A DNA stretch of 64,000 bases from Thermoproteota archaeon (GTDB lineage Archaea; Korarchaeota; Korarchaeia; Korarchaeales; Korarchaeaceae): the NCBI GenBank assembly GCA_030130125.1, contig JARZZM010000013.1, positions 62,001 to 126,000 of the forward strand, read 5' to 3'. Within the stretch, counting starts at the first letter, position 1, and the number at the start of each line of letters is the position of its first letter. The notes beneath the pieces were generated by a model that was given only the letters and a program-made list of their open reading frames with translations, was not told where the DNA came from and made no database searches. A program made the translations under genes and the position numbers. Of the stretch, positions 9,291-19,780 are shown one piece after another.

Positions 9291-10832
9291 ATGGCGCTCG
9301 GGGGTAGCTTGACCCGAGGATCGGACGGGGAACCTCTTGTGAGGATGGAGGGAATAGTGAAGAGGTTCCCCGGAGTCTTAGCGAACGATCACGTCAATTT
9401 TGAGCTACTTCCCGGGGAAATCCATGCCCTTTTGGGTGAGAACGGGGCCGGGAAAACAACTCTCATGAACATACTCTACGGCATATATCAGCCGGACGAT
9501 GGGAAGATCTTCGTAAAGGGGAAGAAAGTTAGGATACGCAGCCCTAGGGATGCGATAAGACTTGGAATAGGGATGGTGCATCAACACTTCCTTTTGGTGG
9601 ACAAGCACACCGTGGCCGAGAATCTAGCCATGGGTTACGCTAGGAGCTTCCTCAATCCCCTGAGAGAGGTAAAGGATAGGATAAGAGACTTCGCCGAGAA
9701 GTACGGGATCCAGGTGGATCCCGACGCCTACATTTGGCAGCTCTCGGTGGGGGAGCAGCAGAAGGTGGAGATAGTGAAAGCCCTCTATGCAGGGGCGGAC
9801 ATCCTCATCTTGGACGAGCCCACCTCGGTTCTCACGCCCCAGGAGGCCAGGGATCTCTTCAATGTGCTCAGGAGGATGAAGGAAGACGGAAAGGGCATCG
9901 TCTTCATCACGCACAAGCTCTCAGAGGTCTTCGAGGTGGCGGACAGGGTTACGGTCATGAGGAGGGGAAGGGTAGTTGGCACGCTCAGGGTGGAAGAGGC
10001 GACCAAGGAATCGCTGGCTAGGATGATGGTGGGGAGGGATGTGGTCTTCGAGCTGGAGAAGGTGCTTGGCAAGCCAGGAAGGCCGGTCCTCGAGGTTAAG
10101 GACCTCGTCGTCCTCGGTGATAGGGGGAGAGAGGCCGTCAAGGGCGTCAGCTTCGAGGTGAGGGAGGGCGAGATATTCGGCGTCGCTGGAGTAGCGGGGA
10201 ATGGACAGAGAGAGCTGGTGCAAGCTATAGTGGGATTGAGGAGGGTGAAATCCGGCTCCGTGAGTGTGATGGGGGTGGATGCTACCAATAAATCGCCCCG
10301 AGAGATCGCCGAGCTGGGTGTCGGACACATTCCGGAGGAGAGGCTAAAGTTCGGCATAGTCCCCGACATGAGCGTCGCGGAGAACTCCGTGCTGAAGAGC
10401 TACTACAGGCCACCTTACAGGAGAGGTCTGCTACTCGACTACGGCGAGATAAGGAGGACCGCCGAGTCTCTCATAAACGAGTACGAGATAGCCGTCCCCT
10501 CACCTGACACGCAGGCCAGGCTCCTCTCAGGAGGTAACATGCAGAAGCTCATAGTGGGGAGGGAGATAAGGAGGGACCCCAAACTCATAGTGGCCTCCAA
10601 CCCGACCTTTGGCTTGGATGTGGGAGCCACAGAGTACATAAGAAAACTCCTTCTCAAGAAAAGGGACGAGGGAAGGGCCATCCTCCTTGTATCGGGCGAC
10701 TTGGACGAGGTGATCCAGCTCAGCGATCGCATAGCTGTGATGTTCGAGGGTAGGTTCGTGGGAGTAGTCAGGCCGGAGGAAGTGACGAGGGAGGAGATCG
10801 GCCTCATGATGTCCGGATCGGAGGTGCTCTGA
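9291..10832 (+). CDS. Nucleoside/simple-sugar ABC transporter, double ATPase
   Basis: ATPase of a BMP-family (purine nucleoside-type) importer, with two fused nucleotide-binding domains in 513 residues. The first has a canonical Walker A GENGAGKT (49-56), signature LSVGEQQ and Walker B LILDEPT. The second has a degenerate P-loop (GVAGNGQREL), a good signature LLSGGNMQ and a Walker B without the usual acidic pair (ASNPT). One competent and one degenerate site is normal for RbsA/NupA-like proteins. The start is uncertain: a TATA-like GTTTAATAT at 9272-9280 would place transcription near 9300, favouring GTG 9339 or ATG 9345 over ATG 9291. The stop overlaps the next start by one base. Confidence 0.92.
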   Translation: MALGGSLTRGSDGEPLVRMEGIVKRFPGVLANDHVNFELLPGEIHALLGENGAGKTTLMNILYGIYQPDDGKIFVKGKKVRIRSPRDAIRLGIGMVHQHFLLVDKHTVAENLAMGYARSFLNPLREVKDRIRDFAEKYGIQVDPDAYIWQLSVGEQQKVEIVKALYAGADILILDEPTSVLTPQEARDLFNVLRRMKEDGKGIVFITHKLSEVFEVADRVTVMRRGRVVGTLRVEEATKESLARMMVGRDVVFELEKVLGKPGRPVLEVKDLVVLGDRGREAVKGVSFEVREGEIFGVAGVAGNGQRELVQAIVGLRRVKSGSVSVMGVDATNKSPREIAELGVGHIPEERLKFGIVPDMSVAENSVLKSYYRPPYRRGLLLDYGEIRRTAESLINEYEIAVPSPDTQARLLSGGNMQKLIVGREIRRDPKLIVASNPTFGLDVGATEYIRKLLLKKRDEGRAILLVSGDLDEVIQLSDRIAVMFEGRFVGVVRPEEVTREEIGLMMSGSEVL

Positions 10833-11905
10833 TGAGATTGAGAGTGATCAAGAGGCTCGAGACGAGCAGGAAGATTATGATTCTCGTGAGGATATCATCG
10901 GTTTTCGCTGCCCTGATGACGGCCTCGATCGTCTTCTTGGTTTACGGCCTGAATCCCGTCGACGTATACTCCTCCATATTCTACAACGCGTTCGCTACTC
11001 GCATAGGCGTGACGGAATCTGTGGTTAGAATGATTCCCCTCCTCTTGGTGAGCTCAGGCCTCGCCTTGGTGTTCAGGACGGGGTTCTGGAATATAGGGGC
11101 AGAGGGCCAGCTGCTGGCGGGGGCGATGGCCGCTTACGTGATAGCGGTGAATTACGGGTCCCTCCCGTCGGCGTTGCTCATCCCCATCCTCTTCTCCATC
11201 GGGTTCGCCGCGGGAGCCGCTTGGGGCATACCACCAGCGATCCTGAGAGCTAAACTCAACGTGAACGAGGTCATCTCCACCCTCATGCTGTACTACATCC
11301 TGTATTGGGTGTTCCAGCACCTCATCCACGGTCCTTGGAAGGCTAAGGAGAAGGTCGGACAGCTCACTTACGGCGGCTTCGCCCACACGGAGGTGATACC
11401 AGAAGCGTCTCACCTTCCCCTGATAGATGGCACTAGGATCCACTGGCCCACCCTCCTGATAGCTGTGATCACCTCCATCTTGGCCTACCTGATCCTGAGG
11501 AAGACCCCTTGGGGGTTCGAGATGAGGGCCATTGGAAGCAATCCCGATGCCGCCTCGGCGGCTGGCATGAGCTACATGAGGACCGTGGTTCTGGCCATGG
11601 TGGTGAGCGGTGGCTTGGCGGGGATCGCAGGAGTGGGGGAACTTTGCGGCGTACAGAAGAGGTTCACTCCCGAGTTCCTCTCCGGATACGGGTTCTCCGG
11701 AATAATAACCGCTTGGCTGGGGGGTAACAACCCTCTAAGCCTGATCGTGACGAATTTCCTCTATGGAGGACTTTTAGTCGGTGGAGAATACATAATGATA
11801 ACGTACAGGCTTCCCATAGGGGTAGTGGATCTCTTCAACGGGATAATACTATTCTTCATCCTCGCTGGCGAGTTTCTGGTGAGGTACAGGGTGGTGAGGG
11901 GATGA
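10832..11905 (+). CDS. BMP-type ABC transporter permease 1
   Basis: A 357-residue membrane protein of the branched-chain/ribose permease family (BPD_transp_2), with about ten hydrophobic segments and the family-typical GFWNIGAEGQLLAGA motif near residue 85. It forms a heterodimeric channel with the next gene product and is powered by the double ATPase upstream. The start codon shares one base with the ATPase stop and the end overlaps the next gene by four bases, so the three are translationally coupled. Homologues in bacteria import nucleosides. Confidence 0.92.
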   Translation: MRLRVIKRLETSRKIMILVRISSVFAALMTASIVFLVYGLNPVDVYSSIFYNAFATRIGVTESVVRMIPLLLVSSGLALVFRTGFWNIGAEGQLLAGAMAAYVIAVNYGSLPSALLIPILFSIGFAAGAAWGIPPAILRAKLNVNEVISTLMLYYILYWVFQHLIHGPWKAKEKVGQLTYGGFAHTEVIPEASHLPLIDGTRIHWPTLLIAVITSILAYLILRKTPWGFEMRAIGSNPDAASAAGMSYMRTVVLAMVVSGGLAGIAGVGELCGVQKRFTPEFLSGYGFSGIITAWLGGNNPLSLIVTNFLYGGLLVGGEYIMITYRLPIGVVDLFNGIILFFILAGEFLVRYRVVRG

Positions 11906-12837
11906 TCGAGGCCAAGCTAATCGAGAATATCCTCTGGATAGGCTTGAGGTCGGCGACGCCTCTCCTCCTCGCGGCACTAGGTGAGATATATGCAGAGAGA
12001 TCCGGAATTCTGAACTTAGGTGTTGAGGGAATGATGGCCGTGGGTGCCTTGAGCTCTTTCGCGACCGCCCTAGTCACAGGGAACCCGTGGTTGGGAGTTC
12101 TGGTCGGGATGCTTTCCGGGGGCTCGCTATCGATGATACATGGAGCCATAAGCATAGGACTCAAGGGAAATCAGGTGGTTTCGGGGCTTGCCCTGACCAT
12201 GTTCGGCCTAGGACTCAGCAGCGTCCTCGGAAGGGTTTACGTGGGAAACCAGCTACCAGTGGAGGCGAGGTTCCTTCCAAAACCCGTGGAACCACTATCG
12301 TCTATCCCGGTACTGGGGAAGGTGCTCTTCGACCAAGATCCCCTCTTCTACGTCTCCCTGCTTCTGGCCCTGATCATGTGGTTACTCCTATACAGGACGA
12401 AGTACGGGATAGTCATAAGGTCTACCGGGGAGAACCCAGCTGCCGTTGATGCGATGGGCATAGATGTGAACAGGGTCAGGTACTTGAGTACCCTAATTGG
12501 AGGGATATTTGCCGGGCTCGCCGGCGCCTACCTATCGGTCGCGTATAATCCGGCTTGGATAGAGAACATGACCGCCGGGAGGGGGTGGATAGCTCTGGCA
12601 CTCGTGATATTCTCACTTTGGGACCCTCTCAGAGCCCTTTTGGGCTCGTACCTGTTTGGCATCGTGGAGGCGAGCGGTTATACGCTCCAGGCCTATGGTT
12701 ACAGTCAATGGCTTCTAAACGGACTTCCCTACCTTCTGACTGTAGTAATACTAACTCTGGGAGCCACTGAATCCATGAGGAGGAGGATGGGGGCCCCTGC
12801 AGCATTGGGCAAACCGTATGAAAGAGAAGAGAGGTAA
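11902..12837 (+). CDS. BMP-type ABC transporter permease 2
   Basis: The second permease subunit, 311 residues, about nine hydrophobic segments. It has the family-typical ERSGILNLGVEGMMAVGA near residue 30 and the cytoplasmic coupling stretch STGENPAAVDAMGIDV. It overlaps permease 1 by four bases (ATGA). Directly after the stop lies a strong stem-loop (12839-12896), separating it from the substrate-binding protein gene. Confidence 0.92.
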   Translation: MIEAKLIENILWIGLRSATPLLLAALGEIYAERSGILNLGVEGMMAVGALSSFATALVTGNPWLGVLVGMLSGGSLSMIHGAISIGLKGNQVVSGLALTMFGLGLSSVLGRVYVGNQLPVEARFLPKPVEPLSSIPVLGKVLFDQDPLFYVSLLLALIMWLLLYRTKYGIVIRSTGENPAAVDAMGIDVNRVRYLSTLIGGIFAGLAGAYLSVAYNPAWIENMTAGRGWIALALVIFSLWDPLRALLGSYLFGIVEASGYTLQAYGYSQWLLNGLPYLLTVVILTLGATESMRRRMGAPAALGKPYEREER

Positions 12838-12838
12838 A

Positions 12839-12896
12839 TAGGAGAGGCTCGCGACCCCCCATGAGGTTCAAGCCCTCTACCCGCGGGCCTCTCCTA
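12839..12896 (+). promoter_or_regulatory. Strong RNA hairpin between permease and binding-protein genes
   Basis: TAGGAGAGGCTCGCG (12839-12853) pairs with CGCGGGCCTCTCCTA (12882-12896), a 15-bp stem with one T-G wobble. The 28-nt loop can form a small inner hairpin (GAGG, TTCAAGC, CCTC). It begins two bases after the permease stop. There is no T-run after it, so it is more likely an RNA-stabilising or processing element, or an attenuator, that sets different transcript levels for transporter core and binding protein, than a plain terminator. Confidence 0.55.
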
Positions 12897-13030
12897 GGCC
12901 ACCGCCCACGGCAGCCTCCTACTCCTTTCACCTCTTATTTGAAAACTTTTCGGTGCAGGTGAAACGACTGAGTCATCTTTATGAAATGCCCGCTGGCCTC
13001 AGCCACAATACCCCCCATGAGGTAGTTAGT

Positions 13031-14356
13031 ATGACCTCTACCCAGTGGGCCGCGATAGCGGTAATACTCCTTATTCTAGGCCTGATTGCGGGTTATTTTG
13101 CTGCTCCGAGTCGTGTCACCACGGTCACTCAGACCGTGACTGTAGGAGCTACAGGAGCACCCGCTAAGACCGTCACGGTCACCGAAACCAAGACCATCTC
13201 GCCAGAGGGAGGGAAGATAAAGGCCGCTTGGATATACGTGGGGCCGATAGGGGACATAGGATGGACCTACGCCCACCATCAAGCGAAGGAGATGGTGGAC
13301 AAAAAGTACGACTGGCTTGAGACGACTCATGTAGAGTCAGTAGCTCCTGCCGATGCCGCTGGCGTGATAGAGCAGCTCATCTCCCAAGGTTACGACGTGA
13401 TCTTCACCACCAGTTTCGACTTCATGGATCCGACTCTGGAAGAGGCCCAGAAGCATCCTGACAAGATATTCTGGCACTGTTCAGGGTACAAGAGGGCTCC
13501 TAATATGGGTACGTACTTCGCGGACTTCTACCAAGTCTACTACCTGAACGGTCTCATGGCCGGAGCCCTGACCAAGACCAAGAAGATAGGCTATGTGGCG
13601 GCGCATCTGATACCTGAGGTCGTCAGGCACATAAATGCCTTCTCCTTAGGAGTTAAGGAGGTCTGCGGGGACTGCAAGGTATACGTCAGGGAGATAGGAG
13701 CCTGGTACGATCCCACAAAGGCCAGACAGGCAGCGGAGGCCCTGATATCTGAGGGCGTGGATGTGCTCGCGTTCACGGAGGACTCTCCTACCGTCGTTCA
13801 GGTGGCAGAAGAGCACTTCCAGAGGGGAGAGCGCATTCTCGCCTTCGGTCACTACAGCCCCATGGAGAAGTTCGGGAAGGACGTTTGCGTCAGCGGTCAG
13901 CTCGTCCATTGGGAGGTGATATACGACGACATCCTCAGCAAGATATACGCTGGCTCCTACACACCCAAGAACCTCCAAAATGTCGATTACTGGTGGAAGC
14001 TGAAGGAAGGCGCCGTGGAACTCGGCTGTGCCTACAACCAACCGATCAATCCCAAATTTGTGGGCGAGCTGAAGTCTGTTAAGGTGAATGAGAAGGTCCA
14101 GCTCCCGAACGGTACAGTGATAGAGAATCCAGACGTTTACACGCTCGTCATGGCGAGGCTCGTACAGATGGGTGCCGTTTGGACCGGTAAGAAGTGGGTA
14201 TTCGTTAACGACGAGACGTTCGACCCGTTCACCGGACCGATATACGATAACGAGGGCAAGTTGAGGGTGCTCCCCGGGCAGAGGATAGGCCACGATGAAC
14301 TCTGGTCCATGCAGTGGTGGGTAGATAACGTGGTAGGTCCATCGCTGGGAGGCTAA
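13031..14356 (+). CDS. BMP-family substrate-binding protein, membrane-anchored
   Basis: Solute-binding component of the importer upstream, with a PnrA/BMP-type domain (PF02608 family). From ATG 13031, preceded by GAGGTAG, the product has 441 residues: an N-terminal membrane anchor (about 5-25) without a lipobox Cys, a Thr/Val-rich linker (about 28-58) as in many archaeal binding proteins, then the domain beginning KIKAAWIYVGPIGDIGWTYAH. BMP proteins usually bind purine nucleosides, so nucleoside uptake is inferred. A longer frame from 12953 lacks a ribosome-binding site and would put 26 odd residues before the anchor. Confidence 0.9.
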   Translation: MTSTQWAAIAVILLILGLIAGYFAAPSRVTTVTQTVTVGATGAPAKTVTVTETKTISPEGGKIKAAWIYVGPIGDIGWTYAHHQAKEMVDKKYDWLETTHVESVAPADAAGVIEQLISQGYDVIFTTSFDFMDPTLEEAQKHPDKIFWHCSGYKRAPNMGTYFADFYQVYYLNGLMAGALTKTKKIGYVAAHLIPEVVRHINAFSLGVKEVCGDCKVYVREIGAWYDPTKARQAAEALISEGVDVLAFTEDSPTVVQVAEEHFQRGERILAFGHYSPMEKFGKDVCVSGQLVHWEVIYDDILSKIYAGSYTPKNLQNVDYWWKLKEGAVELGCAYNQPINPKFVGELKSVKVNEKVQLPNGTVIENPDVYTLVMARLVQMGAVWTGKKWVFVNDETFDPFTGPIYDNEGKLRVLPGQRIGHDELWSMQWWVDNVVGPSLGG

Positions 14357-14397: not shown

Positions 14398-15270
14398 TTA
14401 GATCTCCTTCCTCATCCACTTGTACCTGCTTACCGGCTCGAAGCCAGCGGCCTCGAACGCTGCCCTGTACCTGCACCAAGTCTGCGTAACTACCTTGGGC
14501 ACACCCATCTCATTGGCGAGGGTAACCGCCATCTCAGCAGAATCAAATATCTGACCAAGACTGGCCCTCTTCGGTCCCCATATCAGGGCATAAAGGTGAT
14601 CATCGTCCCTAGTAGGCTGGAACATCGCGAGGATGAGTTGCCACAGCCCCACCCTGACCTTCACGACTCTAGGCGAGGGAAGACCCACACTCTCCCTGTC
14701 CCACAGCAGCTCCCAAAGGAGGGATGAGGGCCTTGTCTGTCCAGCGATCATCTGGGCGGCAGCGGGGAATTCCTCCCTAGTAGCGTCCTCTAACTTGGGC
14801 TGCTCGGGTGCAGGCCTCGCCGGCGCCTCCATCAGCACCTGAGAATCGATCTCCCTGAATCCCAGGTTTTCGAAGAAGGGGAGGGCCTCGGTGGTCGGTA
14901 TCGTGTCTAAGTGGCGCATTCCCATTCCCCTAGCTAGATCCATGCACCTCTCAACGAGCTTCCTCCCTACGCCAGTCCTCCTCGCCTCCTCCTTGACCCA
15001 GACCATCTGCAGGTATGCGTGCTCGCCTACGGGGGTGAGGAACCTCTCCGGTACGACCTCAGCTTCACCGATCACCTTTCCATCAGACAGAGCGACCACT
15101 GCCTTGCCACCGGACGAGTAGAGGGACTCCAAGTACCACTCAAATACTTGGGGGTCTCCCCAGTATCCGCACTCCTTGATCCGGAGATCGAAGGTCATAT
15201 CCCTCCAGCTGGGGCAGTGAATCGAGACAACTTCATCCAACAAATCATGCCTGAACTCAACTATCTCCAA
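14398..15270 (-). CDS. GNAT-family N-acetyltransferase
   Basis: A 290-residue protein whose first 150 residues are a GNAT acyltransferase domain. The acetyl-CoA loop is EEARRTGVGRKLVERC (RxxGxG), followed by a FFENLGFRE motif. After a Pro-rich linker (about 150-158) the C-terminal 130 residues look like a second, degenerate GNAT half. It is the last gene of a four-gene overlapping operon and its first 10 bases overlap the sirtuin gene. Pairing of an acetyltransferase with a sirtuin suggests opposite acylation steps on a shared target, which is inference. The substrate is unknown. Confidence 0.82.
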   Translation of the reverse strand: MEIVEFRHDLLDEVVSIHCPSWRDMTFDLRIKECGYWGDPQVFEWYLESLYSSGGKAVVALSDGKVIGEAEVVPERFLTPVGEHAYLQMVWVKEEARRTGVGRKLVERCMDLARGMGMRHLDTIPTTEALPFFENLGFREIDSQVLMEAPARPAPEQPKLEDATREEFPAAAQMIAGQTRPSSLLWELLWDRESVGLPSPRVVKVRVGLWQLILAMFQPTRDDDHLYALIWGPKRASLGQIFDSAEMAVTLANEMGVPKVVTQTWCRYRAAFEAAGFEPVSRYKWMRKEI

Positions 15271-16034
15271 GAGGGATCATCCTCCACCAGCCGGGCGAGC
15301 TCCCTGAAGATCTCTCCCGCCAGCCCTCCCAACCTGATGTTCGCCAAGCTACTTAAATTAGTTTCCTCCGGATTCACTTCCACCAGTATCTTCCCTCGCC
15401 TCGCCGCGTTTATGGGTAACAGGGCTGCAGGCATGACCACACCACTAGTTCCCACAACGAGGACGACCTCTGCCTCAGAGAACAAACTTTCTGCCCTCTC
15501 GAACTGGTCCATCGGAACGGGCTCCTCGAACCACACCACGTCAGGCCTGAGAAGCCCACCACACTCTTTACACCTCGGTAAATCATCCTCTGGTATGTTC
15601 CCGAAACCTAGATTGAACCGCTTGCCGCATGCAGTGCACCTAACCCTCCATATAGAACCGTGAAGCTCTACTACTAGTCTAGAGCCAGCCCTCTGGTGGA
15701 GCCCGTCGACGTTCTGGGTCACCACGCCCATGAGTATGCCCTTCCTCTCCCAGTCAGCCATCACCTTGTGGGCCCAAGTTGGCTCGGCCCTCGCGATTAC
15801 GGACATCCTCCACTTATACCACTCCCAGACCCTCTTGGGGTTAGACTCGAACGCTCGGGGCGTGGCCAACTCCTCAGGCCTGTACCTGTTCCAGAGTCCA
15901 TCCTTCCCCCTGAAGGTCGGGATACCTGCCTCAGCTGAGGTCCCAGCTCCTGTGAACGCCAGCACCTTTCCTGTATGCTCCTTGATCAAGCGGGCCGCTG
16001 AGGACAGGTTCTCGGAAGGGACGACCTCACTCAC
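15261..16034 (-). CDS. cobB: Sir2-family NAD-dependent protein deacylase
   Basis: A 257-residue sirtuin that removes acyl groups from lysines using NAD. The NAD-binding motif GAGTSAEAGIPTFRG is at about 29-43, TQNVDGLHQRAG follows and HGS carries the catalytic His. Two zinc pairs are visible, CTACG and CKECG. GTSGVVMPAA and VEVNPEETN complete the Rossmann fold. Length and order fit bacterial CobB and archaeal Sir2. It overlaps the radical SAM gene upstream by 8 bases and the GNAT gene downstream by 10. Confidence 0.95.
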   Translation of the reverse strand: MSEVVPSENLSSAARLIKEHTGKVLAFTGAGTSAEAGIPTFRGKDGLWNRYRPEELATPRAFESNPKRVWEWYKWRMSVIARAEPTWAHKVMADWERKGILMGVVTQNVDGLHQRAGSRLVVELHGSIWRVRCTACGKRFNLGFGNIPEDDLPRCKECGGLLRPDVVWFEEPVPMDQFERAESLFSEAEVVLVVGTSGVVMPAALLPINAARRGKILVEVNPEETNLSSLANIRLGGLAGEIFRELARLVEDDPSWR

Positions 16035-17337
16035 CCAACCTCACCTCCGGCGGAGAGCTGGGATACGGTCTCACCTCGGCCTCGAGGGGACACCCTCCCC
16101 TGCAGACTTGGAGCAGAGGGCAGGAGAAGCACGCTTCCCCCACGAAGCGGAGTTCCCTGATCTTCAGGCACTCATCGTGATACCAGATCTTCTCCCAAGA
16201 ATCCCTCAGGATGTGACCCAGAACCTTGTAATGACTCTGGCAGGGTATCACGGACCCATCAGGCTCTACCGCCAAGGTTATGCTGCACGCCGAGCAGAAC
16301 TTCGGTCCCAGACCCTCGCTCATTGGATCCAGCTCACAGTAACGGGTCACCCCGAACCACCTGAAGTCCAGATCCAGCTCCGTGGTGAGCTCCTTAGCCT
16401 CAGCCAACACATCTCTTATCTCATCAAAGGAGGGCTCCAGATCTCTCAGGTCCCTGCCCCTTCCGCTGTATATCAGCCTGTTCAGAGAGAATCCATCTAC
16501 ACCCAGATCTGCGGCGAACCGTATCAATGATTCCACCGTGCTCATGTTCCTCCTGAGGAGGGTGGCGTTGACGCTCACGTAGATATCGAACTTGAGCAGG
16601 TTCTTGAGCCCCTCGACCGTCTCCTTCCAGCTTCCCCTCACTTGGGTTATGGAATCGTGGACCTCTGGATCGCTGGACTCCAAGGTCACCTGAGCGAAAT
16701 CCAATCCGGCCTCGATCAACCTCTCAACCAGCTCTCGGGTTAGAAGTCTCCCATTTGTCACTATTCCCGAGACCATCCCGAGCCTCTGGGCCTCGGCCAC
16801 CAGCTCCGGAAGATCTCTCCTGAGCGTGGGCTCCCCACCGGTGAAAGTGACTTGAGGGACTCCCAGCTCATGGAACCTCCTTAACACGGCCTTCCACTCA
16901 TTAGTGCTCAATTCCCCCCGCTCGTCGGGACTGGAGGAGTAGCAATGGATGCAGGCGTTATTGCACCTATACGTGAGGGCCAAGTCGACCCTGAAGGGGG
17001 CGCCGAGGGTTGATGGGTCAGGAAAGGCCGGTTTAAACCCCAGATCGGTTACGGGGTCCTCATATCCCTCGATGAATCTCCTGAGCTTACTGACTACGTC
17101 CTCATAGTGCCTCCTCACCTCATCTTTTCTCATGCCCCTGTAAATCCTCTTCAACTCCCGATAAGCCTCATCCCATCCCTTACCTGAGAGGAAAGCCTTG
17201 GCGAATACCGCTGCTGTGTAGTTGAGGTAAGCGACCCTCTGAGCATCCACCACTAAGGCACCCATGGCTAGGGGATCTATACGGAGCTGGATCCTCCTAC
17301 CATTCAATTTGAATGTCAGGAATTCCCTCTCGATCAA
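16027..17337 (-). CDS. Radical SAM/SPASM enzyme with PqqD-like N-terminal domain
   Basis: A 436-residue radical SAM protein predicted to modify a peptide. Residues about 1-95 resemble the PqqD/RiPP-recognition fold (VAYLNYTAAVFAKAFL, then a helical EEVRR-like stretch). The core has the cluster motif LTYRCNNACIHC (CxxxCxxC) and the SAM-binding FTGGEPTLR. The C-terminus is a SPASM domain with multiple Cys (FCSAC, IPC, CFSC, CRGGC). I chose TTG 17337, which overlaps the upstream stop (TTGA) and follows GGAGGTG; the open frame extends upstream only through the Cys-tail codons of the previous gene in another frame. The adjacent Cys-rich tail is its likely substrate (inference). Confidence 0.88.
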   Translation of the reverse strand: MIEREFLTFKLNGRRIQLRIDPLAMGALVVDAQRVAYLNYTAAVFAKAFLSGKGWDEAYRELKRIYRGMRKDEVRRHYEDVVSKLRRFIEGYEDPVTDLGFKPAFPDPSTLGAPFRVDLALTYRCNNACIHCYSSSPDERGELSTNEWKAVLRRFHELGVPQVTFTGGEPTLRRDLPELVAEAQRLGMVSGIVTNGRLLTRELVERLIEAGLDFAQVTLESSDPEVHDSITQVRGSWKETVEGLKNLLKFDIYVSVNATLLRRNMSTVESLIRFAADLGVDGFSLNRLIYSGRGRDLRDLEPSFDEIRDVLAEAKELTTELDLDFRWFGVTRYCELDPMSEGLGPKFCSACSITLAVEPDGSVIPCQSHYKVLGHILRDSWEKIWYHDECLKIRELRFVGEACFSCPLLQVCRGGCPLEAEVRPYPSSPPEVRLGE

Positions 17338-18992
17338 CCAACCCCACCTCCAGCACAGGCACAAGCGCAACTCACACATGCGCAGGCACATGCGCAGCTG
17401 ACACAGGCGCAGCTGACTGATGCCGTCCTCCTAGCTCGAGGTCTGGAGGGGACTATGACCTCAGCGACTTTGTCAGCGAAGTCCTCTATGTTCCTGACGA
17501 TATTAGAGGAGACCTCCTCGACCGATCTAGCGATGATATCGGCGGCTTTCTCTATGTCCGGGATGACTGGGACATCTACCTTGCCACTAGGCGTCCCAGA
17601 CGTATCAGGAGCTCTGGGAATCCTCGGAGTGGGGGGAATCGAGGTCCATCTACCCCTAGGCCACCATATCCACACATCGTCCAGCGGATAGGAGGTAAAG
17701 ACTACCTTCCCCTTAGGACTCTTCAATGCCTTTCTCAAACTTCTCTCGAAATCAGGATCTGTCAACAGCCATGCAAGATTACTCTTGACGAGATCGAGCT
17801 TCTCCGCCAAGGGAGCATCCTCGATCATCTCCCATATTGATCTCACCTTGCTGTCGTAGAAAGCGAGGGTCTCCCTCCTCGAGTATCCGGATAGCTCTCT
17901 CTCCACCCTCCTGTGTATGAGCCTGATTACCTTAACTAGGCAATCTTGGTCTAGAGATCTGTCCTCCATCACACAGTCCAAGAACCTCTTCTCATAGATC
18001 CTCAGGTTCCTCCCCGATCCCTCTAACTTCCTAAGTTTAAGTGGATCTAGGCTATCCACCGCCAAGAACCCCTTCTCCACCAAGCTGGCTATGAGAACTG
18101 CTAAAATTCGCCCGTAACTGAGCTTGGCTCCCTCCAACTTGCGGAGATAGGCCACTTCCGTTGGACCCATGTTCTTGTTCGGTCCCAAACTCTCCGCGAA
18201 GATCTCAGGGGCTTGATAGGGAAGCTTCTCTATCCATGACTTGAATAACTTGACTATGGCCACGATGGAGATTATTACCGCTCCCAGAAACATGATCCCT
18301 ATAATGAAGCTGAGGTAGTCCGGAATTCCGCCACCCGCAGGTACTACCTTATCGACGTAGTCCCTTGGAAACGACACCCCTATCTCGAACTTGTAGTTGG
18401 GGGGGAGGTCCCTCCTCTCCCAGTAGAGGTATATCCTGCCGTCATCCAGCGTCTGCAAGTTGTCGTAATCGGGCTGGTTTCTCACCTCTCCCTTGGAAAC
18501 CCCAGGAGGTAGTATCACGAATACTTGGAGCAGCTTTACGGGAGCATTGAACCAGGAGGGTGTGAACATGAGGCCCGCATTGCCGGGGTTAGTCTCGTCC
18601 TCATATATGAAGTCCCTGAGCTCGACCTCCACCACGTAAGTCCTGCTCTCCCCCGGGTCTATAGGCTCGCTGGGTCTCATCTTCACCGCGTAATATGAGT
18701 CCTCCCTTACCTCTTGGGCATCGATCTCAACGGTTTTTCCATTGGGAAAGATTTCCTTAGTCTCTAGCACGCTGAAAGATGGGGAGGGCATCCCTACTGA
18801 TACATAGCGGGCTACCGTCCCCGACTTCACCCTCAGAGTGAGGTTGTACCTCAAGTACACCGTTCCCGAACGCTGTATATCAAGAACGACCTTTTCCCTT
18901 TCTATTTCATACACTATCTGACCGCTCGTATTTATTAGAGGAATTATGAGCGCGGAGATAACGAGGAATAGTAGAATAAGCCTGAACCTCAT
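17334..18992 (-). CDS. DUF2207 membrane protein with Cys-Ala repeat tail
   Basis: A 552-residue protein of the DUF2207 membrane family. A signal/anchor is at about 3-22, an extracytoplasmic beta-rich domain follows to about 220, one membrane segment is at 226-249, then a cytoplasmic helical domain to about 440 and a Pro-rich linker. The last 26 residues are extraordinary: nine Cys between 528 and 546 alternate with Ala, built as two copies of CVSCACACA and followed by GGGVG. The next gene, a radical SAM/SPASM enzyme, starts on this gene's stop codon. Such a tail could carry thioether crosslinks or bind metal; I infer it is the modification target. Divergent from the isomerase gene at 19055. 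Confidence 0.88.
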   Translation of the reverse strand: MRFRLILLFLVISALIIPLINTSGQIVYEIEREKVVLDIQRSGTVYLRYNLTLRVKSGTVARYVSVGMPSPSFSVLETKEIFPNGKTVEIDAQEVREDSYYAVKMRPSEPIDPGESRTYVVEVELRDFIYEDETNPGNAGLMFTPSWFNAPVKLLQVFVILPPGVSKGEVRNQPDYDNLQTLDDGRIYLYWERRDLPPNYKFEIGVSFPRDYVDKVVPAGGGIPDYLSFIIGIMFLGAVIISIVAIVKLFKSWIEKLPYQAPEIFAESLGPNKNMGPTEVAYLRKLEGAKLSYGRILAVLIASLVEKGFLAVDSLDPLKLRKLEGSGRNLRIYEKRFLDCVMEDRSLDQDCLVKVIRLIHRRVERELSGYSRRETLAFYDSKVRSIWEMIEDAPLAEKLDLVKSNLAWLLTDPDFERSLRKALKSPKGKVVFTSYPLDDVWIWWPRGRWTSIPPTPRIPRAPDTSGTPSGKVDVPVIPDIEKAADIIARSVEEVSSNIVRNIEDFADKVAEVIVPSRPRARRTASVSCACVSCACACACVSCACACAGGGVG

Positions 18993-19054
18993 CCCGACTT
19001 TGGGAGGGTCCGGAATATTAACTTGGCTCAGGTCCCTATTCCTTGGGAGCGCTG

Positions 19055-19780
19055 ATGATGATAGCCCCCGGCGTCGAGTACAGGGAAGGTGAAGGTGAAC
19101 TCCTAGTCCAAGGTGAGAAGGTTATCCCCAGCGTGAGGAGGTTCTTCGACCTCCTCACGGTCCTGGAGGATCCCAGTGCCCTCAAGGAGGATGGCAACGC
19201 GTACTTAATGTACAGGGACCTCCCCCCTCTGAGAGCGAGATGGGTCCGGTTCGATGTAACGATAATCCCGTCTTGGATGGTCGGAAGGGAGTATGCCAAG
19301 ACGAAGGGCCACTATCATATGCCTCCCTCGGCGGGCAGGCCCTCCTACCCTGAGATCTATCAGGTGCACTCCGGAAATGCGATTTACCTCCTCCAGAGGG
19401 CAGGTCCCTCGCTCAAGGAGATAGTGGATTTCATAGTGGTGAGGGCATCACCGGGAGATGTAGTGGTCATACCACCGAATTACGGACATGTAACAGTTAA
19501 TCCAGGCGAAGAGACGCTCGTCATGAGTAATCTGATCTACAGAGGGGTGGAGTCAGATTATGAACCGTATGAGAGGCTCAGAGGAGCTGCCTACTACTAT
19601 ACGATCGACGGATTCATCAGGAATGAACGTTACTCCTCAGTACCAGAAATAAGAGAGGGTAAGCCGCTCTGGAGGTCTCAATCAATCGCGATCGATTTCT
19701 TAGAGGATGAGAGTTCCTTCTCATGGTTGAAGGACGTTGACAGGGCATGCGAGGAGGGATTCCTCGGTGTCCGGTGTTGA
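19055..19780 (+). CDS. pgi: Glucose-6-phosphate isomerase, archaeal cupin type
   Basis: Interconverts glucose 6-phosphate and fructose 6-phosphate. It belongs to the metal-dependent cupin family of archaea, unrelated to classical Pgi. The 241-residue protein has the metal-binding cupin motif TKGHYH with the glutamate of PEIYQV, and the second cupin half IPPNYGHVTVN. ATG 19055 follows GGGAG; an in-frame TTG at 19043 is less likely. The protein is somewhat longer than the roughly 190-residue enzymes of Thermococcales because of an extended C-terminus. It is divergent from the DUF2207 operon. Confidence 0.9.
   Translation: MMIAPGVEYREGEGELLVQGEKVIPSVRRFFDLLTVLEDPSALKEDGNAYLMYRDLPPLRARWVRFDVTIIPSWMVGREYAKTKGHYHMPPSAGRPSYPEIYQVHSGNAIYLLQRAGPSLKEIVDFIVVRASPGDVVVIPPNYGHVTVNPGEETLVMSNLIYRGVESDYEPYERLRGAAYYYTIDGFIRNERYSSVPEIREGKPLWRSQSIAIDFLEDESSFSWLKDVDRACEEGFLGVRC

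Follow-up and report, generated by a model that had tools for sequence, protein, structure and literature searches.

The genes described here raise the question whether an enzyme of the kind that matures short ribosomal peptides may act on the tail of a full-size membrane protein. They lie in a stretch of 64,000 nucleotides (hereafter the window) from a Thermoproteota archaeon of the family Korarchaeaceae (assembly GCA_030130125.1, 1.5 Mb in 66 contigs; contig JARZZM010000013.1, positions 62,001 to 126,000) and form a minus-strand string in the order P0001, P0002, P0003 and P0004. Neighbours overlap at all three junctions (TTGA at 17334-17337, 8 bp at 16027-16034, 10 bp at 15261-15270), exactly as an earlier note on this DNA had it. 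The same note read the string as a Cys-tailed DUF2207 membrane protein, a radical S-adenosylmethionine (SAM)/SPASM enzyme, a sirtuin and a GNAT acetyltransferase, and proposed that the enzyme modifies the tail and that the other two control acylation. Radical SAM/SPASM maturases with a recognition element (RRE) of the kind found with ribosomally synthesized and post-translationally modified peptides (RiPPs) are known for short peptides. We conclude that P0001 and P0002 probably represent a widespread two-gene system of protein maturation, in which a membrane protein of full size has its Cys tail modified by the enzyme, most likely by thioether-type links from Cys to Ala or Gly.

The C-terminus of P0001 reads ...SVSCACVSCACACACVSCACACAGGGVG. 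It holds nine Cys (residues 528, 530, 533, 535, 537, 539, 542, 544 and 546) and two head-to-tail copies of CVSCACACA (530-538 and 539-547) before a final GGGVG, so the alternating tail was described correctly from the outset. The Cys-bearing candidate substrate is thus a membrane protein of 552 residues and not a short peptide (gene calls extended down to 60-70 residues).

This type of tail (hereafter CACA) accompanies the enzyme closely among its near relatives. The phylum of the source was sampled with 29 genomes, and an orthologue of P0002 occurs in all 16 genomes of the genus, its own included, with one copy cut by a contig end. Nineteen of the 20 loci recovered by enzyme homology at 55% identity or more have an adjacent CACA tail, and the last (L016) ends at a contig end. 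The next four enzyme matches (37-45% identity) have no adjacent CACA tail; the CACA tail lies 29 kb away in G026 and 4.4 kb away in G027, G017 has another Cys tail, and in G021 the neighbouring gene runs off the contig. Among 345 archaeal genomes, CACA tail and enzyme (E <= 1e-55) occur together in 23, the tail alone in one (G025), the enzyme alone in eight and neither in 313, giving totals of 24 genomes with the tail and 31 with the enzyme. Of the eight genomes with the enzyme alone, six have another kind of tail, made of CHSACHSAC repeats, and in the other two (G005, G021) the contig ends at this place.

The association extends to bacteria. In 150 genomes of the class to which G048, a Thermoflexales record, belongs, both partners occur in 17, the CACA tail alone in none, the enzyme alone in 21 and neither in 112 (tail in 17, enzyme at E <= 1e-55 in 38), a count that, among bacteria, covered this one class enzyme-first. 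The 20 closest enzymes of the class (E <= 5.1e-80) include 17 in genomes with a CACA tail. The remaining 18 are more distant; 13 of their loci were fetched, of which ten have an adjacent CHSA tail, two reach a contig end and one (L250) has none within 14 kb. For the CHSA tail itself, the 47-genome family of G202 gave both partners in 27 genomes (enzyme at E <= 1e-40), the tail alone in three (G506, G534, G540), the enzyme alone in one (G527) and neither in 16; the enzyme was found in 28 and the CHSA pattern in 30.

A search from the side of the tail used a degenerate DNA pattern encoding C[AV]CACAGGG, with one genome per species in bacteria and archaea, and returned at least 118 stretches, of which 80 loci were listed. 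To count as credible, a tail needed four or more Cys within the 30 residues leading up to GGG and a stop no more than 40 residues on. Among the matches listed, 81 hits in 80 loci yielded 76 credible tails; L064, L065, L076 and L106 were judged chance hits by this rule and L086 by hand (a 99-residue open frame, no enzyme). Some credible tails lie in short open frames that are cut by the end of the locus or perhaps frameshifted, and 76 tails are not 76 genomes: L071 has two, L100 and L111 share a contig, and L091-L093 were taken as G016, G003 and G015. The listed carriers include Chloroflexota, Bacillota, Planctomycetota, Armatimonadota, Zixibacteria, Krumholzibacteria, Aminicenantes and Coatesbacteria and, among archaea, Bathyarchaeota, Heimdall-, Hod- and Sigynarchaeota, Thermoplasmatota and Methanocella, besides others. 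One common form of the tail is CACACACAGCACACAGGGR at the extreme C-terminus; another, in Bacillota, is CACACACACAGGGRAGCSxKDFYxT some 18-35 residues from the end. In three Bacillota loci (L070:2906-4216, L056:2078-3448, L089:2707-4014) the GCSxKDFYxT segment is conserved after the CACA block, and the second SPASM Cys set of the enzymes is incomplete.

An enzyme with the CxxxCxxC motif lies on the same strand within 500 bp of 46 of the 76 listed tails (including L094, whose enzyme has all three Cys of the motif in the alignment) and elsewhere in the fetched 8 kb of a further seven, 53 in total. Of the rest, nine have an enzyme copy cut by the end of the DNA, two (L060, L123) have a copy without the motif only and 12 have none. 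Counting any family homologue, including motif-less ones, the figures are 61 within 500 bp and 64 overall. Eleven of the 12 tails without a local enzyme were searched genome-wide, and ten of these genomes contain the enzyme (best E 6e-94 to 1e-48); the twelfth tail, L093, taken as G015, likewise belongs to a genome with the enzyme.

The second tail type, (CHSA)n, has its Cys spaced by three instead of one, and the type of tail follows the branch of the enzyme. In a first quick maximum-likelihood tree of 65 rows (48 family enzymes, six motif-less paralogues and 11 other radical SAM proteins as outgroup), seven labels required six changes, which is the minimum; here L052 was labelled CHSA with its tail gene running off the contig, and L224 was labelled tail-less, although G288, its genome, encodes a CHSA tail some 8.5 kb away from the enzyme. 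The second tree, with 69 rows, had both labels corrected and 16 bacterial enzymes added, and it did without the motif-less paralogues and six of the distant outgroup rows. The enzymes for which a CHSA tail was seen, 15 in all (five archaeal, ten bacterial), fall into one 19-row clade with Shimodaira-Hasegawa-like approximate likelihood ratio test (SH-aLRT) support of 100; this clade contains no CACA enzyme, and no tail was seen for its other four rows. Six Bacillota enzymes with an internal CACA block likewise form one clade (100). Both trees were quick ones without bootstrap, and their rooting is unsure because of long branches, among them the join between CHSA clade and outgroup; the separation of CHSA from CACA is independent of rooting. 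Tail type and enzyme branch thus move together, as expected of an enzyme and its substrate, and with the archaeal co-occurrence counts this upholds the association of enzyme and tail proposed in the earlier note.

The enzyme itself has the architecture of a RiPP maturase. P0002 carries the motif CNNACIHC and matches the Pfam families Radical_SAM (1.6e-31) and SPASM (2.3e-7), both of which are matched by all 41 members of the enzyme alignment; the motif and the SPASM domain are as first described. The PqqD-like N-terminus also holds, by model: Pfam does not score PqqD or an RRE in P0002 itself at E <= 1, but PqqD is matched in 16 of the 41 members (E <= 0.01), the AlphaFold2 model (mean predicted local distance difference test score, pLDDT, 91.3) shows three helices and four strands between residues 5 and 90, and the structural alignment with SkfB begins at residue 14 and so takes in the RRE. 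The SPASM Cys pattern is CX9-15GX4C ... CX2CX5CX3C ... C; P0002 keeps six of these Cys and lacks the last, and C125, C129, C132, C348, C366 and C406 are invariant in the alignment. Among solved structures, the closest over the full length are SkfB (Z 29.2, 351 residues, 24% identity) and SuiB (27.9), with further matches to PqqE (25.4), ChlB (25.1), the sactipeptide thioether enzyme 5why (24.8), anSME (24.6) and the epimerase EpeE (17.9), and SkfB is also the top phmmer match (3.9e-27, residues 24-422). Among the best 25 of 92 NCBIfam rows, no model reached its cut-off (best TIGR02109, 152.9 against 381 bits), and the existing names for such enzymes (PqqE, SkfB, MftC or other NCBIfam equivalogs) were accordingly rejected within the rows listed.

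P0001 matches no Pfam or NCBIfam model at E <= 1. The family DUF2207 (PF09972) has a plan of signal peptide, extracellular beta domain, transmembrane (TM) helix and cytosolic part, to which P0001 is similar, but PF09972 was matched by none of the 36 aligned tail proteins at E <= 0.1 and by nothing in the genome of P0001; a Lachnospiraceae relative (L070) matches it below cut-off (E = 0.0021, 18.7 against 24.4 bits). The DUF2207 label given earlier was therefore dropped. The AlphaFold2 model of P0001 (pLDDT 81.4, predicted TM-score 0.46) comprises a signal helix, a beta domain (27-209), a TM helix (226-255), a winged-helix-like part (277-322), a helical bundle and two short helices (480-513) before the tail. 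The best solved match of the beta domain is a luminal domain of Ost1/ribophorin I (6ezn_A, Z 16.9, 177 residues, 12% identity), and N-domains of unrelated aminopeptidases come next (Z up to 13.9). In Ost1 the same domain likewise stands directly before a TM helix; the likeness speaks for fold, not for function. Asgard archaea hold sequence relatives of this protein, whose predicted extracellular fold resembles a subunit of the eukaryotic oligosaccharyltransferase (ribophorin I/Ost1).

By hydropathy, 45 of 55 tail proteins have one later TM candidate and ten have two, and in the 45 the side after the TM segment is richer in Lys and Arg in 36, equal in four and poorer in five. Because of this hydropathy and charge distribution, the tail is predicted to be cytosolic in most members, probably including P0001, and would thus lie where a radical SAM enzyme can operate. 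The segment before the tail (residues 479-515) has a conservation of 0.66 in 12 close rows, compared with 0.48 and 0.47 in the flanking stretches, and of 0.45 compared with 0.30 and 0.30 across all 36 rows; its consensus FA...S..V......F...V...(TNP)PP is similar in many archaea and bacteria. This helix may serve as a leader bound by the RRE of the enzyme.

We consider it very likely that the tail is the substrate of the enzyme, and give thioether links about an even chance of being the modification. According to this proposal, the membrane protein would be exported by its signal peptide and held by the TM helix, its cytosolic domain ending in the leader-like helix and the Cys tail; the N-terminal RRE of the enzyme would hold this helix, and 5'-deoxyadenosyl radical chemistry on the tail would link Cys sulfurs with carbons of Ala or Gly in an adjacent block. 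With its Cys-Ala runs in two or three blocks split at VS or AG turns, the tail would lend itself to a hairpin whose strands are tied together by bonds from Cys on one side to backbone carbons on the opposite side; Ala and Gly acceptors occur in sactipeptides. A membrane protein of full size would in this way carry a cross-linked knob in the cytosol, and the knob could hold metal, bind a partner or resist heat or proteases. With middling confidence we extend the proposal to a cross-domain system, in which RRE-bearing radical SAM/SPASM enzymes would knit cytosolic Cys-repeat tails in two co-evolving dialects, CACA and CHSA, each in Bacteria and Archaea and CACA also in Asgard archaea, yielding membrane-anchored cross-linked or metal-holding knobs that would act inside the cell, unlike secreted peptides.

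Several observations weigh against this proposal. The tail of P0001 receives no structure in the AlphaFold2 model (pLDDT 30-38), and the barrel of P0002 taken alone matches viperin-like enzymes (Z 25.1). Six Bacillota enzymes in the alignment lack C403 and C412, and SPASM enzymes make C-C bonds, formylglycine, epimers and more besides thioethers. The hydrophobic N-terminus found by simple hydropathy in all 55 tail proteins is partly by construction, since start codons were picked with a preference for a hydrophobic start, and the side of the tail is ambiguous in the ten proteins with a second TM candidate, several Chloroflexota among them, with Lys and Arg opposing the assignment in five. The identity of the letters that the search pattern fixes is no evidence in the loci that it found. 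Fisher tests of co-occurrence gave p of 4e-28 to 1e-8, values that ignore the relatedness of genomes and are thus overstated. The enzyme stands without an exact CACA pattern genome-wide in G360, G361 and G483 (the last two on cut or short contigs), without a tail by whole-genome exact pattern in G527, and without a tail within 14 kb in L250. Tail and enzyme genes lie apart in G026, G027, G041 and G288, and on different contigs in G111, G048, G367 and G455 (the last three being at least part of such cases in the class of G048). Finally, a Cys tail without the enzyme, the case that the earlier note had named as refuting its reading, occurs in five genomes: G025 (91% complete), G042 (tail locus L128; no enzyme at E <= 1e-15 genome-wide), G506 (74%), G534 (77%) and G540 (92%). 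The strict form of the pairing is therefore weakened; incomplete assemblies or enzymes below threshold may account for some of these genomes.

That the enzyme modifies the tail by other chemistry, be it epimerisation of Ala to give a strand of L-Cys and D-Ala, Cys oxidation, C-C links or a reaction that a methyltransferase completes, is possible but somewhat doubtful. The fold is common to anSME, PqqE, SuiB and EpeE (Z scores above), strict alternation suits a chemistry acting on every second residue, and a class I methyltransferase family occurs in 25 of 103 clustered loci. On the other hand, the best full-length match including the RRE is SkfB, and the residue repeated in either type of tail is Cys. 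SkfB is a thioether-forming maturase.

It is unlikely that the tail is an unmodified metal- or Fe-S-binding module, with the enzyme acting elsewhere or drawing clusters or electrons from it. Such a module would accord with nine closely spaced Cys, with the His of the CHSA tail and with a small zinc-ribbon-like TM protein as a frequent neighbour (23 of 103 clustered loci, with weak Pfam matches), but the RRE of the enzyme, the conserved helix before the tail and the match between tail type and enzyme clade fit a substrate better.

The sirtuin and the GNAT were identified correctly in the earlier note (P0003: SIR2, 2.3e-55, and NCBIfam NF001753, 302.5 bits with a cut-off of 243; P0004: GNAT by Pfam), and the suggestion that they control acylation of the tailed protein or of a partner draws on the overlapping genes of the window and on a gene order (tail gene, enzyme, sirtuin, GNAT) that 13 of 15 further loci of the genus share, the exceptions being L037, without a sirtuin, and L045, cut before the tail gene. 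This role is very improbable: in eight loci outside the genus (L046 being cut downstream) the enzyme is always kept, but no sirtuin and one weak GNAT match (28% identity) appear at E <= 1e-8, so that the pair travels without them. Because the four-gene order stays within the genus, the sirtuin and the GNAT are probably late neighbours; the four-gene set is a genus-level arrangement whose core is the tail protein and the enzyme, and a four-gene system was rejected.

Selection acts on the tail. In 14 loci of the same genus, the 27 tail codons differ from those of the window almost only silently (silent/replacement 14/0 in L036 of G014, 15/1 in L044 and 19/1 in L039), whereas 42-49% of body codons carry replacements in L036-L044 (42% in L036); L037 is the one large exception, with one tail block absent, ten silent changes and five replacements. 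That the tail is low-complexity drift in a chance neighbourhood is hardly credible, since, although simple in sequence and predicted to be disordered, it changes almost only silently and recurs in two domains, and its reversed pattern has no match in the 345 archaeal and 150 bacterial-class genomes; a chance tail was rejected on the grounds of the silent codon changes and the reversed pattern.

The coordinates of the features are collected in the following table.

Features of the four-gene string, with positions in the window, strand and basis of assignment
Feature	Position	Strand	Basis
P0001 Cys-tailed membrane protein, 552 aa	17334..18992	-	ORF, structure model, hydropathy
P0001 signal peptide, residues 1-24	18921..18992	-	hydropathy; modelled helix 2-22
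P0001 extracellular beta domain, residues 25-214, ribophorin I/Ost1-like fold	18351..18920	-	structure model, fold search
P0001 transmembrane helix, residues 226-255	18228..18317	-	structure model, hydropathy
P0001 winged-helix-like and helical domain, predicted cytosolic, residues 277-422	17727..18164	-	structure model
P0001 conserved pre-tail helices, leader-like, residues 479-515	17448..17558	-	model, conservation; putative recognition role
P0001 Cys-Ala tail VSCACVSCACACACVSCACACAGGGVG, residues 526-552, proposed modified core	17337..17417	-	sequence, homologues, codon changes
P0001 tail Cys residues 528-546	17355-17411	-	
P0002 radical SAM/SPASM enzyme, 436 aa, TTG start	16027..17337	-	Pfam, NCBIfam, phmmer, alignment, fold
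P0002 RRE/PqqD-like winged helix, residues 4-90	17068..17328	-	family Pfam matches, AlphaFold2 model, SkfB alignment
P0002 CxxxCxxC (C125, C129, C132)	16942..16965	-	invariant in 41/41 aligned members
P0002 SPASM auxiliary-cluster Cys C348, C366, C403, C406, C412, C416	16090..16296	-	Pfam, alignment
P0003 sirtuin, genus-level neighbour outside the core	15261..16034	-	Pfam, NCBIfam, locus comparison
P0004 GNAT acetyltransferase, genus-level neighbour outside the core	14398..15270	-	Pfam, locus comparison

In the window the string is flanked (9291-14356 and 19043-19780) by what we take to be genes of an ABC transporter, including a binding protein of BMP type, and a cupin-type phosphoglucose isomerase-like gene. 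The wider neighbourhood was clustered over 103 loci; of the 80 loci found by the pattern, this set omits eight, namely L091-L093 and those of the five chance hits. The methyltransferase family, assigned to class I in three of three members scanned, is exemplified by L055:5292-6041, L227:5825-6577 and L229:5504-6289, and in L229 it adjoins an enzyme without a tail gene within 13 kb. The small TM protein with a zinc-ribbon-like end stands directly upstream of the tail gene in L055:428-826, L073:2376-2744, L131:4267-4659 and L227:2467-2832; in several loci it reads ...CPYCG...EEPKW and ends in EEPKW or ESPKW. ABC ATPase genes also occur in several clustered loci. The tail gene of Chloroflexota and Planctomycetota is often adjoined by an enzyme-like copy that lacks CxxxCxxC (six of six checked: L055:4111-5313, L057:3371-4519, L080:4251-5447, L112:6222-7373, L099:3680-4936, L060:1712-2974), usually with a live enzyme nearby. 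The PqqD-like region is kept in two scanned or aligned members of this group, and such paralogues may be dead scaffolds or leader-binding partners. Beside enzymes of the CHSA clade, L052:3857-4786 encodes a further protein built of Cys repeats (CPTGAKCPSQPKC...; 34 Cys in 310 residues), which is truncated at the end of the contig and has a hydrophobic segment at its C-terminus, and proteins of about 380-405 residues that look similar by eye adjoin the enzyme in L249:1735-2928, L252:8298-9458, L256:4583-5728 and L053:1610-2824; a Pfam scan of one of them gave no family above cut-off.

Compared with known systems, the enzyme shares full-length architecture and fold with the RRE-bearing RiPP maturases SkfB, SuiB and CteB, and its gene likewise adjoins a Cys-bearing candidate substrate. 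The candidate substrate here is a membrane protein of 300-700 residues with a mostly predicted cytosolic tail, and not a short secreted peptide. The closest parallel among membrane proteins is a system in which TIGR04222 proteins with Cys-rich low-complexity C-termini lie beside MNIO enzymes and are proposed as their substrates (PMC12452194). It resembles the present pair in combining an integral membrane protein, a low-complexity Cys tail and an adjacent RiPP-type enzyme, but that enzyme is a multinuclear iron oxidase, and the tails are Ser/Gly-rich with Cys, predicted to be periplasmic and mostly from Actinomycetota. The TIGR04222 domain was not found in P0001 (NCBIfam, E <= 1), and one CHSA relative matches it weakly (20.8 bits, cut-off 43). 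SPASM enzymes with repetitive cores are represented by TvgB with TVGG peptides and by Asp-Cys repeat peptides, the TVGG chemistry being a C-C cyclopropane (PMC9062424). They are alike in joining a SPASM enzyme to a repeated motif and differ in having peptide substrates; neither a membrane-protein substrate nor a CACA or CHSA motif appears in the available part of that source.

No description of the tail protein and enzyme pair was found in the openly licensed PubMed Central literature, preprints apart, so that one may exist elsewhere, nor is the pair mentioned in the available parts of PMC12144867, PMC12710340, PMC9062424 and PMC12452194. Within this literature and the NCBIfam rows listed above, the view that the system had not been described thus holds, and our searches gave no match of either partner to a dedicated family model. 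The chemistry and the enzyme family are a variant of the RiPP SPASM kind; the target, a membrane-protein tail in both domains, is the part for which no description was found.

The pairing spans a very large evolutionary distance, and the Cys tail is the most conserved segment of the membrane protein. The two motif dialects permit direct tests by swapping enzyme and substrate, and cultured carriers such as Ornatilinea apprima and Gemmiger formicilis make the system testable. If the tail is modified, the reaction would belong to protein modification rather than to the making of natural products, and the pair may represent an undescribed way of modifying whole proteins.

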